Of a stretch of 64,000 nt of DNA, positions 2,645 to 6,845 are shown piece after piece. The notes beneath the pieces were generated by a model. The model ran no database searches, was not told the origin of the DNA, and saw only the letters and a program-made list of their open reading frames with translations. Numbering within the stretch: position 1 is the first letter of the stretch; every line of letters begins with the position of its first letter. The stretch is from positions 558,001 to 622,000 of the forward strand of contig NZ_VISM01000001.1 in assembly GCF_007827455.1 (NCBI RefSeq), in the 5' to 3' direction. Source of the stretch: Lutibacter sp. Hel_I_33_5 (GTDB lineage Bacteria > Bacteroidota > Bacteroidia > Flavobacteriales > Flavobacteriaceae). The position numbers were made by a program, and so were the translations under genes.

Positions 2645-3514
2645 TTAATATAAATATCCCATTTTTCCTTGCTGAAAATCTCGCATAGCTTCCATAATCT
2701 CTGTTTGAGTATTCATTACATAAGGTCCATATTGCGCAACCTTTTCCTTAATTGGTTCTCCAGAAAGAATTAACAACGTACTTTTTTGTGCAGCTTTTAT
2801 ATGTATTGAATTTCCATCGTGATTAAAAGTAACCATTTGAGTTGCTCCTTTTTTTAAGGTCGCTTCATCATTTATCAATACTTCACCATCTAATAAATAC
2901 ACTAAAGATTGATGATTTTTTGGGATTTCAACACCCATATTTCCATTTTCTGAGGCTTCTAAAGTGTACACATTCACCTCAGTTTGCGTTTTAATAGAAC
3001 CGTATTTTCCTTGCTGTTCTCCCGCAACAATTTTTAACGAAAATGTTTTATCATCATTTTGAATAACATTCATTTCTTCGCTTTTTACATGCTGATAATT
3101 AGCAGGCATCATTTTCTTTTCTTCAGGAAGATTTAACCATAATTGTATTCCTTCTAATTCTCCTCCCCTTTTTACAAACTCTTTTGTTGGACCTTCAGCA
3201 TGAACAATTCCTCTTCCTGCTGTTGTCCATTGTACATCGCCAGCATTTACTAACATCTCATTTCCTAAAGAATCTCGATGCAATTGTTCTCCTTTAAATA
3301 ATAACGTTATGGGTTCAAAACCTCTATGCGGATGTGGGCCTAAATCGAAAGGATTATTAAACTCACTTATTGCATAAGGCCCATAATGATGTAATAATAA
3401 AAAAGGGTCTACATTTTCTATTCCTTGTGTTGGTAATGGTTGACGTAATTTTATAGGTCCCATATTTACTAAAGGACTTCCAACTTTATGCTGTATTGAT
3501 TTTAAATTTTTCAT
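2645..3514 (-). CDS. Pirin family protein
   Basis: 289 aa from ATG 3514. The N-terminal cupin carries the pirin metal site: HPHRGFEPITLLF (two His), then LHRDSLGNEMLVNAGDVQWTTAGRGIVHAE with a further His and Glu. The C-terminal cupin (residues about 180-280) ends with the typical GEPIKEKVAQYGPYVMNT segment. Pirins are iron-binding bicupins; some have quercetin dioxygenase activity or act as redox sensors, and the substrate here is unknown. An upstream TTG at 3541 falls inside a putative operator and is rejected. It lies downstream of marR in the same direction with its own copy of the operator, so it is probably part of the MarR regulon. Confidence 0.92.
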   Translation of the reverse strand: MKNLKSIQHKVGSPLVNMGPIKLRQPLPTQGIENVDPFLLLHHYGPYAISEFNNPFDLGPHPHRGFEPITLLFKGEQLHRDSLGNEMLVNAGDVQWTTAGRGIVHAEGPTKEFVKRGGELEGIQLWLNLPEEKKMMPANYQHVKSEEMNVIQNDDKTFSLKIVAGEQQGKYGSIKTQTEVNVYTLEASENGNMGVEIPKNHQSLVYLLDGEVLINDEATLKKGATQMVTFNHDGNSIHIKAAQKSTLLILSGEPIKEKVAQYGPYVMNTQTEIMEAMRDFQQGKMGYLY

Positions 3515-3531
3515 TATTATTTCTATTAAAG

Positions 3532-3549
3532 TATTTTCCAAGGAAAATA
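3532..3549. promoter_or_regulatory. Putative MarR operator, copy 3 (upstream of pirin gene)
   Basis: TATTTTCCAAGGAAAATA is an inverted repeat broken only at the central dinucleotide. It is the same TTCC-N2-GGAA core as at 4302-4323 and 5795-5816. It sits between the marR stop (3565) and the pirin ATG (3514), 17 nt before the start codon. No TAnnTTTG box occurs at the spacing seen for the other two sites. Confidence 0.6.
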
Positions 3550-3564
3550 TTTTTATAATTTTTT

Positions 3565-4002
3565 TTATCTAATTTTATCTAATAAACCACTTAATTGAGT
3601 TGCTTCTTCTTTTGTTAAATTCTCTAAAAAATTTAATTTAGTAGAATTATCTATTGTGGTTAAAAGCGTTAAACCTTGTTTAGAAATATTGATAAATACA
3701 ACTCTTCTATCATGATCACAACGTGTTCTTTCTATCAGTTTTTTATCACACAACTTATCCATTAAACGTGTTGCATTTGGCGCACGTTCTATCATTCTTT
3801 CTTTAATAATTTGAACCTTTGTTGGCTCTCCAGCACCACGTAAAATTCTTAAAATATTGTATTGTTGTGGTGAAATTCCGTAAGGTTTAAAAAACTCTAT
3901 CTCCCTACTATTCAACCAATTTGCAGTATATTTTATATTAATTAACGCTTTTAATTTACTACTTGTAAATTTTGATTTTATGTCGTTAGAAATATCTCCC
4001 AT
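3565..4002 (-). CDS. MarR family transcriptional regulator
   Basis: 145 aa, a single winged-helix MarR domain. Visible features are the N-terminal dimerisation helix, the recognition region (QQYNILRILRGAGEPTKVQIIKERM, then APNATRLMDKLCDKKLIERTRC), the wing with the MarR-typical DHDRRVVFINIS, and the C-terminal helix (LLTTIDNSTKLNFLENL). One Cys in the recognition region (KLCDKKL) and one just before the wing (TRCDHDRR) could be thiol sensors; this is inference. It is downstream of the glutaredoxin-like gene by 13 nt, so the two are co-transcribed from a promoter with operator copy 2, which implies autoregulation. It probably also controls the doxX and pirin units. Confidence 0.92.
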   Translation of the reverse strand: MGDISNDIKSKFTSSKLKALINIKYTANWLNSREIEFFKPYGISPQQYNILRILRGAGEPTKVQIIKERMIERAPNATRLMDKLCDKKLIERTRCDHDRRVVFINISKQGLTLLTTIDNSTKLNFLENLTKEEATQLSGLLDKIR

Positions 4003-4015
4003 TCTAAATAAAATA

Positions 4016-4264
4016 TTAGTCTTTTATACTTGCTTCTTTAATAATCTTATTAAATTCATCAGAAGTTGGTGTTAAAAAAACTTTCCCATCAATAATTACT
4101 GTTGGACACTTTAACGCACCGTTATATAACTCTTTCGTATGCTTTTTTGCTTCTTCATCTGTAGCTATATCTTTATACTCAAATGGCATATCAGACATTC
4201 TAAAGTAATTCTTAAATGCTACTGTGTGTGCATGTCCTTTTCTACCGTAAATTATAATCTTCAT
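4016..4264 (-). CDS. Glutaredoxin-fold protein lacking the N-terminal active-site cysteines
   Basis: 82 aa from ATG 4264. It has a thioredoxin/glutaredoxin pattern: beta strand MKIIIYGRKG, helix, then the cis-Pro loop LKCPTVIIDGKVFLTP. Where glutaredoxins carry CPYC or CVQC just after the first strand, this protein reads GHAHTVAF, so there is no CxxC. Its only Cys directly precedes the cis-proline (KCPT). It is therefore unlikely to be a normal dithiol oxidoreductase. It could bind a metal through His residues, or be a sensor or partner of the downstream MarR. First gene of a two-gene unit with marR. Confidence 0.75.
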   Translation of the reverse strand: MKIIIYGRKGHAHTVAFKNYFRMSDMPFEYKDIATDEEAKKHTKELYNGALKCPTVIIDGKVFLTPTSDEFNKIIKEASIKD

Positions 4265-4282
4265 AATATATCGTTTATCGTT

Positions 4283-4290
4283 CAAAGTTA
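4283..4290 (-). promoter_or_regulatory. -7 promoter box for glutaredoxin-like/marR unit
   Basis: On the minus strand this reads TAACTTTG, an exact match to the Bacteroidota -7 consensus TAnnTTTG, 18 nt before the ATG at 4264. Eleven bases separate it from operator copy 2, the same gap as in the doxX promoter. Confidence 0.6.
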
Positions 4291-4301
4291 CTAAGAATTA
4301 A

Positions 4302-4323
4302 ATTATATTCCAAGGAATATAAT
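4302..4323. promoter_or_regulatory. Putative MarR operator, copy 2 (glutaredoxin-like/marR promoter)
   Basis: A 22-bp inverted repeat mismatched only at the central dinucleotide, core TATATTCCAAGGAATATA. It lies just upstream of the -7 box at 4283-4290 and would cover the -33 region. This is the layout expected for an autoregulated MarR repressor. Confidence 0.65.
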
Positions 4324-4345
4324 ACAAATGAAAATAACAGGATTT

Positions 4346-4447
4346 CTATCCAATAAAATTCACATCCTTATGTTTTCCGTCACAAAATGGCTTGTTTGTT
4401 GACGCTCCACATCTACAAAAAACAGTTGCTTTTTTTCCTTCTGACAT
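4346..4447 (-). CDS. CDGSH iron-sulfur domain mini-protein (33 aa)
   Basis: The protein starts MSEGKKATVFCRC and is 33 aa. It contains a full CDGSH-type 2Fe-2S motif, C-x-C-x2-S-x3-P-x-C-D-G-x-H, as CRCGASTNKPFCDGKH. The usual Ser/Ala/Thr before the last His is Lys. Three Cys and one His would ligate the cluster, as in mitoNEET-type proteins. It is almost nothing but the motif, so it probably works as a dimer or with a partner. It lies 15 nt after the FMN reductase stop (4463) in the same direction, so it is likely the last gene of the doxX unit. Its size makes it easy to miss in automatic annotation. Confidence 0.85.
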   Translation of the reverse strand: MSEGKKATVFCRCGASTNKPFCDGKHKDVNFIG

Positions 4448-4462
4448 CACAAATTGTTTTAT

Positions 4463-4996
4463 TTAAATTAATTTTCCTAAAATGGCAACTGCAGCTTTTA
4501 ACTGATTATTTAATTCTTCATCAACAATTTCACCATCCTTAAAATGATCATAGAAACTTGGTAATGAAAAATCAGAAACTATATTTCCTCCCATATGTGG
4601 AAATCCATTTTTTGCTGTTGACAAAACCGAAGTTCCTCCTCTACCTCCTGGTGAAGTAGCCATTAATAACATAGGAATATTACTCCATAATTTTTTCTCA
4701 ACTCTGGACATCCAATCGAAAATATTTTTAAAAGCTACTGTAAAATTTCCGTTATGTTCTGCTAAAGACAAAATGATTCCGTCTGCACTATGGATGTTTT
4801 GTAAAAATGTCTTAGCATTTTCAGGAATTCCATTTTCTGATTCTTCATCAACACCATATATTGGAAGAGGAAACTCATTTAAATCCAAAACTGTTACTTC
4901 AATATCCTTCAATAAACTAGATGCATAGATTGCTAATTGTTTATTAATAGATTTCTTACTATTACTTCCTCCAAACACTACTATTTTTTTCATCAT
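4463..4996 (-). CDS. NADPH-dependent FMN reductase / NAD(P)H-dependent oxidoreductase
   Basis: 177 aa flavodoxin-like fold. The phosphate-binding loop of FMN is VVFGGSNSKKSINKQLA at the N-terminus, followed by the hydrophobic strand with ILSLAEHNGNFTVAFKNIFDWMSR (family motif around the flavin) and the SPGGRGG loop near residue 115. It reduces FMN, quinones or azo compounds with NAD(P)H; the true substrate is unknown. The first ATG overlaps the osmC stop by one base (TAATG), suggesting translational coupling. A second Met follows directly, so the start could be 4993. Confidence 0.9.
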   Translation of the reverse strand: MMKKIVVFGGSNSKKSINKQLAIYASSLLKDIEVTVLDLNEFPLPIYGVDEESENGIPENAKTFLQNIHSADGIILSLAEHNGNFTVAFKNIFDWMSRVEKKLWSNIPMLLMATSPGGRGGTSVLSTAKNGFPHMGGNIVSDFSLPSFYDHFKDGEIVDEELNNQLKAAVAILGKLI

Positions 4997-5400
4997 TAAT
5001 TAATTTTTGATTCAATTGCTGTTTCTCCTTTTACCATTTTTGCAACCGGACATTTACCTGCAATTATTAATAATTTACTTTTCTGCTCTTCTGTGACCTC
5101 ATTTTCAAAAGATATTTCTTCTACTAAAGATTTTTTGATCCCGTCTTTTGTTAATTCTTCTTTTTGAGAAACTTCTACATGGATTTTTCCTAAATCCCAA
5201 CCTTTTCTTTCAGCATACATTCTTAGCGTGATAGAAACACAACCGCCAATAGCCGTTAACAGATATTCTACAGGAGTTGGTGCTGTATCTCCTCCCCCCG
5301 ATTTTAAGGGCTCATCAATAACCGCAAAATGATTTCTCATCTGCACTTCGGCTAAATATTTTTTATTGGTAAGGGTAACTTTAGAAACTTTACTTGCCAT
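4996..5400 (-). CDS. OsmC/Ohr family protein
   Basis: 134 aa. It shows the family pattern: an N-terminal beta sheet (VQMRNHFAVIDEP), the PTPVEYLLTAIGGCVSITLRMYAERKG helix with the first redox Cys, and a second Cys in IIAGKCPVAKMVKG. These two Cys reduce organic hydroperoxides in characterised members. The stop overlaps the next gene by one base, and the start abuts the doxX-like stop (5400), so the three genes are tightly coupled. The redox context supports a peroxide or thiol-stress role. Confidence 0.9.
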   Translation of the reverse strand: MASKVSKVTLTNKKYLAEVQMRNHFAVIDEPLKSGGGDTAPTPVEYLLTAIGGCVSITLRMYAERKGWDLGKIHVEVSQKEELTKDGIKKSLVEEISFENEVTEEQKSKLLIIAGKCPVAKMVKGETAIESKIN

Positions 5401-5753
5401 TACCCTATTTTTTTACTGTAGATATATGATACAATTAATAAAATCAAGGCAACCAAAGCTCCCATTTGATCTCCATCACCAATCATATAATGTGCAAAAA
5501 AGGCTAAAATAAATGCAAAGAAAAATCCTGCATACGCCCATTCATTTAAAAACTTACCTCTAAAAAACCAAAAAGCAACTATACCTAGTAATTTAATAAT
5601 TCCATATGGATAAATTAGATATGTTGGATATCCAAAACTTGTAAAAGCTCCTTGAATTACTTCATGATTAAAAAAATATTGACTAACCGAAAAAAGCATT
5701 AATAATGTTAATAAACCTGTTGATGCGTAAAAAATAATTCTATTTGTTTTCAT
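5400..5753 (-). CDS. DoxX-like family membrane protein
   Basis: 117 aa with four predicted transmembrane helices (residues about 7-23, 42-62, 71-90, 95-112), the size and layout of DoxX/DoxX-like proteins. It is the first gene of a unit that continues into osmC-like, FMN reductase and the CDGSH protein. DoxX-type proteins are linked to thiol or quinone redox systems in other bacteria, but the activity here is not shown by sequence. The promoter carries the best operator copy (5795-5816). Confidence 0.8.
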   Translation of the reverse strand: MKTNRIIFYASTGLLTLLMLFSVSQYFFNHEVIQGAFTSFGYPTYLIYPYGIIKLLGIVAFWFFRGKFLNEWAYAGFFFAFILAFFAHYMIGDGDQMGALVALILLIVSYIYSKKIG

Positions 5754-5775
5754 TGTATCTATTTTAAATTCAATA

Positions 5776-5783
5776 CAAATATA
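5776..5783 (-). promoter_or_regulatory. -7 promoter box for doxX-like unit
   Basis: On the minus strand it reads TATATTTG, an exact match to TAnnTTTG, 22 nt before the ATG at 5753. The gap to operator copy 1 is 11 nt. Confidence 0.6.
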
Positions 5784-5794
5784 GTAAAATATTT

Positions 5795-5816
5795 AATATA
5801 TTCCATGGAATATATT
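5795..5816. promoter_or_regulatory. Putative MarR operator, copy 1 (perfect 22-bp palindrome)
   Basis: The palindrome is perfect over 22 bp; its core is TATATTCCATGGAATATA. It sits where the -33 element of the doxX promoter should be and is 90 bp upstream of the divergent MarR-GNAT gene, so it may act on both. It shares the TTCC-N2-GGAA core and flanking TATA with copies 2 and 3. Confidence 0.7.
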
Positions 5817-5906: not shown

Positions 5907-6845
5907 ATGGATGCATTAATTGGTTTTGGAAATTTAGGGATTGGATCAAGATTAAAAAGAGTAAGCGAATATATGATGCGTGAAACTCAGCTAGTATATG
6001 ATGAATTTAATATAGATTTTGACCCTTACCTATTCCCAGTATTTAAAATAGTAAAAAATAATAAAGGAATTAATAATAATGAAATTACAACAAGCCTAAA
6101 TGTTTCTCAACCTTCAGTAACTCAATCTTTAAATAAACTTTTAAAGAAAGAGCTAATAGTTATCTCTGAAGATAAAAAAGATCGTCGTAAAAAAAATATT
6201 CAGTTATCAAAAAAAGGTGAAAAGCTTGCGAAAAACATAGACCCTATCTGGAAAAGTATTGAATATATGATTAAAGAATATACAAAAATCACTTCAGATT
6301 CATTAAACGAACATTTGAATATTTTAGAAAACAAATTTGAAAAAAACAGGTTTAGTAGTGCAATAATTAATCATATTAAAATCAACTCAAATAATATCAT
6401 TTCATTTAAAAAAGAATATGCCAATTATTTTTATGAGTTAAATATTGAATGGCTAAAAACTTATTTTTATGTAGAACCTTATGATGAGGAAGTTTTAAGT
6501 AATCCAGAAAAATATATCATAAACAAAGGTGGATACATATTTTTCTCGAAATTAAATAACGAAATTGTTGGTACGGTAGCTTTAATGCCAACTAAAGATG
6601 GCTTATTCGAACTTACAAAAATGGCAGTATCACCAAAGCATAGAGGTTTTAAAATTGGACAAAAATTAATGCAACATTGTATTAATTTTGCTAAAGAAAT
6701 AAACTTAAATTCTCTTATTTTATATTCAAATACAAAATTAGAAAACGCTATTTATATCTATAGAAAATATGGTTTTATAGAAATTCCTGTTGAAGAAAAT
6801 TCGCCGTACTTAAGAAGTGATATAAAAATGATTTTAGAATTTTAA
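5907..6845 (+). CDS. MarR-type winged helix fused to GNAT N-acetyltransferase
   Basis: 312 aa. Residues about 1-145 form a MarR winged helix (NNEITTSLNVSQPSVTQSLNKLLKK, wing KDRRKKNIQLSKKGEKL). Residues about 160-312 form a GNAT domain with the acetyl-CoA motif KMAVSPKHRGFKIGQKLMQH. Such fusions are a known family; targets are generally unknown. It is divergent from the doxX unit. Its stop overlaps by 3 bp the stop of the convergent membrane protein at 6842. It could bind operator copy 1 or an unrelated site. Confidence 0.9.
   Translation: MDALIGFGNLGIGSRLKRVSEYMMRETQLVYDEFNIDFDPYLFPVFKIVKNNKGINNNEITTSLNVSQPSVTQSLNKLLKKELIVISEDKKDRRKKNIQLSKKGEKLAKNIDPIWKSIEYMIKEYTKITSDSLNEHLNILENKFEKNRFSSAIINHIKINSNNIISFKKEYANYFYELNIEWLKTYFYVEPYDEEVLSNPEKYIINKGGYIFFSKLNNEIVGTVALMPTKDGLFELTKMAVSPKHRGFKIGQKLMQHCINFAKEINLNSLILYSNTKLENAIYIYRKYGFIEIPVEENSPYLRSDIKMILEF

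Follow-up and report, generated by a model that had tools for sequence, protein, structure and literature searches.

MhqR of Staphylococcus aureus and Bacillus subtilis is a quinone-sensing repressor of the MarR family, whose operators are palindromes of 16 to 20 bp (PMC6798810). The S. aureus MhqR operator spans positions −6 to +12, and quinone sensing by this protein does not involve a thiol mechanism (PMC6798810). Here we describe a locus from Lutibacter sp. Hel_I_33_5 (Flavobacteriaceae; NCBI RefSeq assembly GCF_007827455.1, contig NZ_VISM01000001.1, positions 558,001 to 622,000 of the forward strand), a stretch of 64,000 nucleotides (nt) referred to below as the window, in which three related palindromes lie within a cluster of redox genes that also encloses a marR gene. 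With a probability that we put at roughly 0.9, these palindromes serve as operators for the MarR-family protein (145 amino acids) whose gene lies at 3565..4002 on the minus strand and which would act as repressor of the unit. The gene set, an FMN reductase and pirin accompanied in places by DoxX, OsmC-like, CDGSH, glutaredoxin and OYE proteins, resembles the quinone and electrophile detoxification genes of the MhqR regulon (PMC6798810, PMC12893000). There are also differences. The half-site is TCTCGA in MhqR and TTCC here; the MhqR operator lies over the transcription start, whereas the promoter sites described here are centered near −34.5, with their core 17 nt before the −7 box; and the predicted regulon here includes YceI besides pirin and FMN reductase but none of the ring-cleavage dioxygenases found in the MhqR regulon.

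The palindromes, all three assigned to the minus strand and read directly from the sequence, lie where an earlier prediction made from the letters alone (the original prediction) had placed them. Operator 1 (5795..5816), aatatattccatggaatatatt, is a perfect 22-bp palindrome 5' of doxX-osmC-fmn-cdgsh. Operator 2 (4302..4323), attatattccaaggaatataat, is also 22 bp long, with only its central AA unpaired, and is found 5' of grx-marR. Operator 3 (3532..3549), tattttccaaggaaaata, is an 18-bp palindrome with the same central AA unpaired; it is located between marR and pirin, and its core ends 21 nt 5' of the pirin ATG. Common to all three is the core TTCC-N2-GGAA. On its own the bare 10-bp core, TTCCNNGGAA, is weak evidence, with three occurrences in the window against 0.85 expected, because 3 of 100 shuffles also reach three. 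The 18-bp form is not a product of chance: the window holds three exact matches to the refined pattern (described below) and none with one or two mismatches, and the 12 other matches listed all carry three. In the whole genome (3,101,420 bases), the exact motif of the original prediction has exactly three matches, all at this locus, and the same motif read backward as a control has none.

The enclosed protein passes the Pfam cut-offs for both MarR_2 (38.1 bits; cut-off, 27) and MarR (36.9 bits; cut-off, 24.6), has the MarR fold, and has a palindrome of 18 to 22 bp at its own operon, as members of the family do. The nearest solved sequence is the Planctomyces limnophilus MarR protein 3u2r (profile E value, 6.9e-24), whose entry title gives no function. 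Assignment to a named subfamily was tried and rejected: the NCBIfam models for SlyA (39.9 against 120 bits) and the MarR equivalog (30.9 against 240 bits) were below cut-off, as was that for HpaR (49.4 against 121.2 bits), represented by 22oz of Xanthomonas campestris, whose operon is not found here.

Across the family, the motif follows the orthologues of this one protein. In a draw of 149 Flavobacteriaceae genomes, nearly one per genus (148 genera), MarR orthologues (at least 51% identity, E ≤ 9.7e-41) are present in 62. The 62 loci examined, which are the window and stretches from 61 relatives, include six that are cut short at contig ends. All 256 four-base palindromic cores with gaps of 0 to 8 were screened over these loci, with expectations taken from base composition, and TTCC with a gap of 2 had the top ratio among cores with at least eight matches (100 matches in 54/62 loci versus 5.0 expected, a 20-fold excess). 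These 100 divide into 47 at the head of a transcription unit, 5' of its first gene (in 46 loci), 15 between marR and pirin, 36 in coding sequence and 2 elsewhere; the coding matches, 32 of which fall in one conserved ABC-ATPase gene stretch, are false positives and were not counted as operators. Because the refined consensus, TAKWTTCCNNGGAAWMTA, was read off the sites at the orthologue loci, its recovery of them is in part circular. The independent support, as far as sequence comparison provides it, is the absence of the refined motif elsewhere and its pairing with the orthologue at the level of genomes, a pairing also obtained with the original prediction's own pattern (32/149 family genomes; backward control, 2). 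The refined motif was found in 48 of the 149 genomes, namely 45/62 with the orthologue and 3/87 without it (Fisher test, 2e-20). In an order-level draw of 246 genomes, some of them shared with the family draw, the corresponding fractions were 7/8 and 3/238. The P values for this association are optimistic because the genomes are related.

Most refined-motif sites (57/63) are within 2.3 kb of a marR orthologue. The six distant ones are the YceI sites of the Lutibacter genome itself and of genome G131 and single sites in G080, G120, G031 and G071; G080, G120 and G031 lack the orthologue, and the open reading frame lists around their matches, inspected by eye, hold no MarR unit. When up to one mismatch is allowed, the Lutibacter genome contains exactly four sites of the refined motif (control, 0). 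A weight matrix built from 62 sites, including the three of the window, scores those three at 27.0 to 29.9 and the YceI site, which was outside the training set, at 29.8; 400 kb of the same genome yielded no other score of 8 or more. A motif scattered over places unrelated to redox genes would have refuted the original prediction; in the Lutibacter genome the refined motif was confined to the locus and one YceI promoter. Of the ten proteins looked for, just one with a DNA-binding role, MarR, recurs in nearly all loci, and the co-occurrence of motif and orthologue supports the choice of the enclosed MarR as regulator that the original prediction had made. From these comparisons, the enclosed MarR is almost surely the protein that binds the palindromes, and they support the interpretation that this MarR controls a conserved regulon that has four sites in this genome and includes its own gene.

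MarR proteins mostly work by excluding RNA polymerase, and the position of the sites is consistent with this. Both promoters in the window carry a box of the TAnnTTTG type on the minus strand, TATATTTG before doxX (5776..5783) and TAACTTTG before grx-marR (4283..4290), each starting 11 nt past the 22-bp repeat and thus 17 nt past the core. TAnnTTTG is the −7 box of flavobacterial sigma-A and lies at −12 to −5 (PMC9723704, PMC6847099), which places the operator core at −39 to −30. The 11-nt distance and the coverage of the −33 region that had been predicted for operators 1 and 2 are therefore both present. The broader claim of a fixed promoter geometry holds for those two and fails for operator 3, which belongs to another class: no TAnnTTTG occurs there from 70 nt upstream through the pirin ATG. 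Over all the orthologue loci, TAnnTTTG starts exactly 17 nt past the core at 43 of the 47 promoter sites, including the two in the window. The four exceptions are one box at 18 nt, TATATTCG at 17 nt, TATCTTTA at 17 nt and one site with neither. When the count is extended to 92 distinct sites, all chosen for having a −7 box at 16 to 19 nt, the distance is 17 nt in 83.

So rigid a distance between operator and −7 box is also what an activator contacting the polymerase would produce, and the enclosed MarR might use the same sites to recruit RNA polymerase at −33. We consider this unlikely, since overlap with −33 together with autoregulation is typical of MarR repressors and leader sites such as those before pirin would be unsuited to activation. 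In keeping with an activator, no −33 element is evident in 50 operator-free promoters of the Lutibacter genome or in F. johnsoniae (PMC6847099). Repression by the enclosed MarR is, on the arrangement of the sites, the likely mode of action.

The operators between marR and pirin form a leader class. In 14 of the 15, the core ends 11 to 26 nt before the pirin ATG, and in one it ends 113 nt before it. The marR-pirin gap measures 41 to 185 nt where an operator is present and at most 41 nt in 32 of the 39 loci without any form of it, and three further gaps contain a doubtful operator variant. At four of the 15 loci (L082, L089, L110 and L119), a short hairpin followed by a T-run overlaps the end of marR at its stop codon, immediately 5' of the pirin operator. 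The leader operator most likely stops read-through or acts on an unseen promoter. The fourth operator of the genome precedes a YceI-family gene (L005:3329-3346, which corresponds to C1:1338328-1338345 of the same genome) and is the next-best match there to the original prediction's pattern, with one mismatch. Among the three other genomes of the genus that were searched, one, G131, shares this operator; its YceI promoter, far from marR, has TACATTTG at 17 nt.

Several observations weigh against the reading of a single MarR regulon. The strict motif is absent from 17 of the 62 orthologue genomes. Twelve of these 17 loci have a weaker variant 17 to 19 nt before TAnnTTTG (in four of them TACC-NN-GGTA), three of the remaining five have a variant at 8 to 12 nt, and two have none; a search for MarR residues that go with the TACC-type sites found none that set those four loci apart. 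The Lutibacter YceI operator lies 12 nt before TATATTTG, not 17, and in G218 and G348, which belong to the same genus and whose MarR is 66% identical, the operator at the marR locus lies only 9 nt before TATCTTTG; because of these cases the spacing must be called usual rather than absolute. The strict YceI site is not found in G218 and G348. An operator between marR and pirin is seen in as few as 15 of the 57 loci with pirin, and for none of the 15 was a promoter seen, TAnnTTTG being absent over the stretch that begins 70 nt upstream and ends at the pirin ATG. Finally, we infer quinones or electrophiles as the signal from gene content only.

Pfam agrees with every gene name that had been assigned to the unit. 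On the minus strand the order is operator 1, doxX, osmC, fmn, cdgsh, operator 2, grx, marR, operator 3 and pirin. The products are a DoxX-like membrane protein (5400..5753; 117 amino acids; DoxX_2), an OsmC-like protein (4996..5400; 134 amino acids; OsmC), an NADPH-dependent FMN reductase-like protein (4463..4996; 177 amino acids; FMN_red), a CDGSH iron-sulfur protein (4346..4447; 33 amino acids; zf-CDGSH), a glutaredoxin-fold protein (4016..4264; 82 amino acids; Glutaredoxin), the MarR regulator, predicted to bind the three sites, and pirin (2645..3514; 289 amino acids; Pirin and Pirin_C). The CDGSH gene is very small and under the usual length cut for open reading frames. Past pirin lies an OYE/dienoyl-CoA reductase-like gene (506-2530); the window shows no operator match 5' of this gene.

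Matches to the ten window proteins were counted in each orthologue locus; such counts include matches to the window's proteins only and may be low. FMN reductase and MarR matched in all 62 loci, pirin in 57, doxX in 22 and CDGSH in 6, followed by a MarR-GNAT fusion in 3, osmC and OYE in 2 each and glutaredoxin in 1, the window itself. Organism names were available for 46 loci (Tenacibaculum, Polaribacter, Lutibacter, Tamlana and others); of these, 18 each had osmC, doxX and glutaredoxin, and 26 had OYE. Judged by these matches, fmn-marR-pirin is the conserved core of the unit and the window an enlarged version of it. Since doxX, CDGSH, osmC and glutaredoxin occur in only part of the orthologue loci, the wider "thiol" part is a lineage-specific addition; such additions are commoner in the named Tenacibaculum and Polaribacter loci.

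The gene content also bears on which regulator is at work. The OsmC-like gene of the window, shared by 18 of the 46 named loci, might point to an organic-peroxide sensor of the OhrR type, a class that has a conserved reactive N-terminal cysteine. This is very unlikely: osmC matched in only 2/62 orthologue loci, the NCBIfam OhrR model gave 23.5 bits against a cut-off of 200, and the window MarR has no cysteine before residue 85. Among the 62 orthologues, Cys85 is found in 46, Cys95 in 45, both in 33 and neither in 4, and these four have no cysteine at all. A thiol switch through Cys85 and Cys95 as the shared mechanism was accordingly rejected, and because the cysteines are not universal, ligand binding is at least as likely. 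A second candidate for the binder is the MarR-GNAT fusion (5907-6845), which contains a Pfam MarR domain and is divergent to doxX, at 96 nt from operator 1. Its claim is slighter still: it is present in 9 of the 46 named loci, all nine from Tenacibaculum, and in 3/62 orthologue loci against 54/62 for the core motif and 62/62 for the FMN reductase-MarR pair, and the operator keeps its position in loci that lack the fusion. Least probable of all is that the palindromes are chance or transcript-level features such as terminators, as the mild excess of the bare core, the 36/100 coding matches and the hairpins with T-runs at four of the 15 operator-bearing marR-pirin gaps might suggest, given that the 18-bp form occurs elsewhere in the genome only at the YceI promoter, tracks one MarR orthologue and mostly keeps its distance to the −7 box exact to one base.

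We propose that a dimer of the enclosed MarR binds the 18- to 22-bp palindrome TA(T/G)WTTCC-NN-GGAAW(A/C)TA. At the doxX and grx-marR promoters, the bound dimer would lie across the −33 region and exclude RNA polymerase, and because operator 2 precedes grx-marR, the protein would repress its own gene. At pirin, the leader operator, just before the ATG and past marR, would block read-through transcription or an unseen weak promoter, and the distant YceI gene would come under the same control through the fourth operator. The dimer would be released, and FMN reductase and pirin induced together with the accessory redox genes, by a signal that is most likely a quinone, a related electrophile or a flavin-reducible toxicant. 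In the open-licence PMC literature, we found no report of a TTCC-N2-GGAA MarR operator, although its absence in print is not established by that, and no paper that joins the MarR family with pirin and DoxX or with a YceI operon in Bacteroidota. The locus would provide a sequence-defined operator, a probable regulator and a small regulon for a unit that is widespread in Flavobacteriaceae, and its promoters form a natural test set for the question of whether flavobacterial sigma-A reads a −33 element.

At its center, the operator loses its symmetry. On the coding strand, the 47 promoter sites have TT at the center in 40 cases, TA in 4, AT in 3 and AA in none, and the 15 pirin sites have AT in 14 and TT in 1 (Fisher test for the two classes, 5e-8). 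Thirteen of the 14 loci with both kinds of site combine TT at the promoter with AT at pirin; the exception is the window, whose own doxX operator has AT at its center. Counting over all 108 loci with duplicates removed gave TT 67, AT 13, TA 11, AC 1 and AA 0 for 92 promoter-class sites and AT 20, AA 6, TT 4 and AC 1 for 31 sites without a −7 box. The alignment itself shows this asymmetry; because the genomes are related, fewer of the sites are independent than these counts suggest. Because a homodimer should not care for direction, the bias of TT over AA may come from the polymerase. A TTTG-like −33 element has been described in Bacteroidota (PMC7366714), and the operator center falls at −35/−34, so that TT followed by G occupies −35 to −33, the place of the disputed −33 TTG. 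It is possible that the operator center doubles as the T's of such an element, a suggestion toward which we lean slightly less than away from it. Four results oppose it. In F. johnsoniae, the −33 element is hardly visible (PMC6847099). TTG at the operator spacing was present in 2/50 operator-free promoters of the Lutibacter genome and in 2/52 operator-free promoters of the window and its relatives; these 52 held 12 TTG in all over spacers of 16 to 22, a slight excess. Genome-wide, TTG-N19-21-TAnnTTTG showed no excess (159+186, versus 169+163 for the control). A general −33 TTG element was rejected on these operator-free and genome-wide counts. If the double role were true, these promoters would show that the −33 element works in Flavobacteriaceae, with the same bases read by both the repressor and the sigma factor.

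A second set of MarR proteins offers a comparison within the family. Fifteen loci taken from many weaker matches (L104 to L107 and L137 to L147) encode paralogues whose MarR is 40 to 47% identical to that of the window, and in 14 of the 15 a YceI gene adjoins marR. Like the orthologue, the paralogues have a palindrome at a fixed place in a TAnnTTTG promoter. The palindrome itself is different: ACAA-N3-TTGT is found past the −7 box before marR in 13/15 loci, at the same place, 5 nt, in 12 of these 13. TTCC-N2-GGAA occurs twice in the 15 paralogue loci, against 1.2 expected, and never in the 18-bp form. Each MarR thus probably combines a separate operator with a separate fixed position, that of the orthologue at −33 and that of the paralogue over the start. 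Such a pair would be useful for work on changes in DNA specificity and on inducible expression in Flavobacteriaceae. Residues 74 to 76, which immediately precede the recognition helix in the model, are mostly MSN in the paralogues and (A/S)PN in the orthologues, and the helix itself differs as well.

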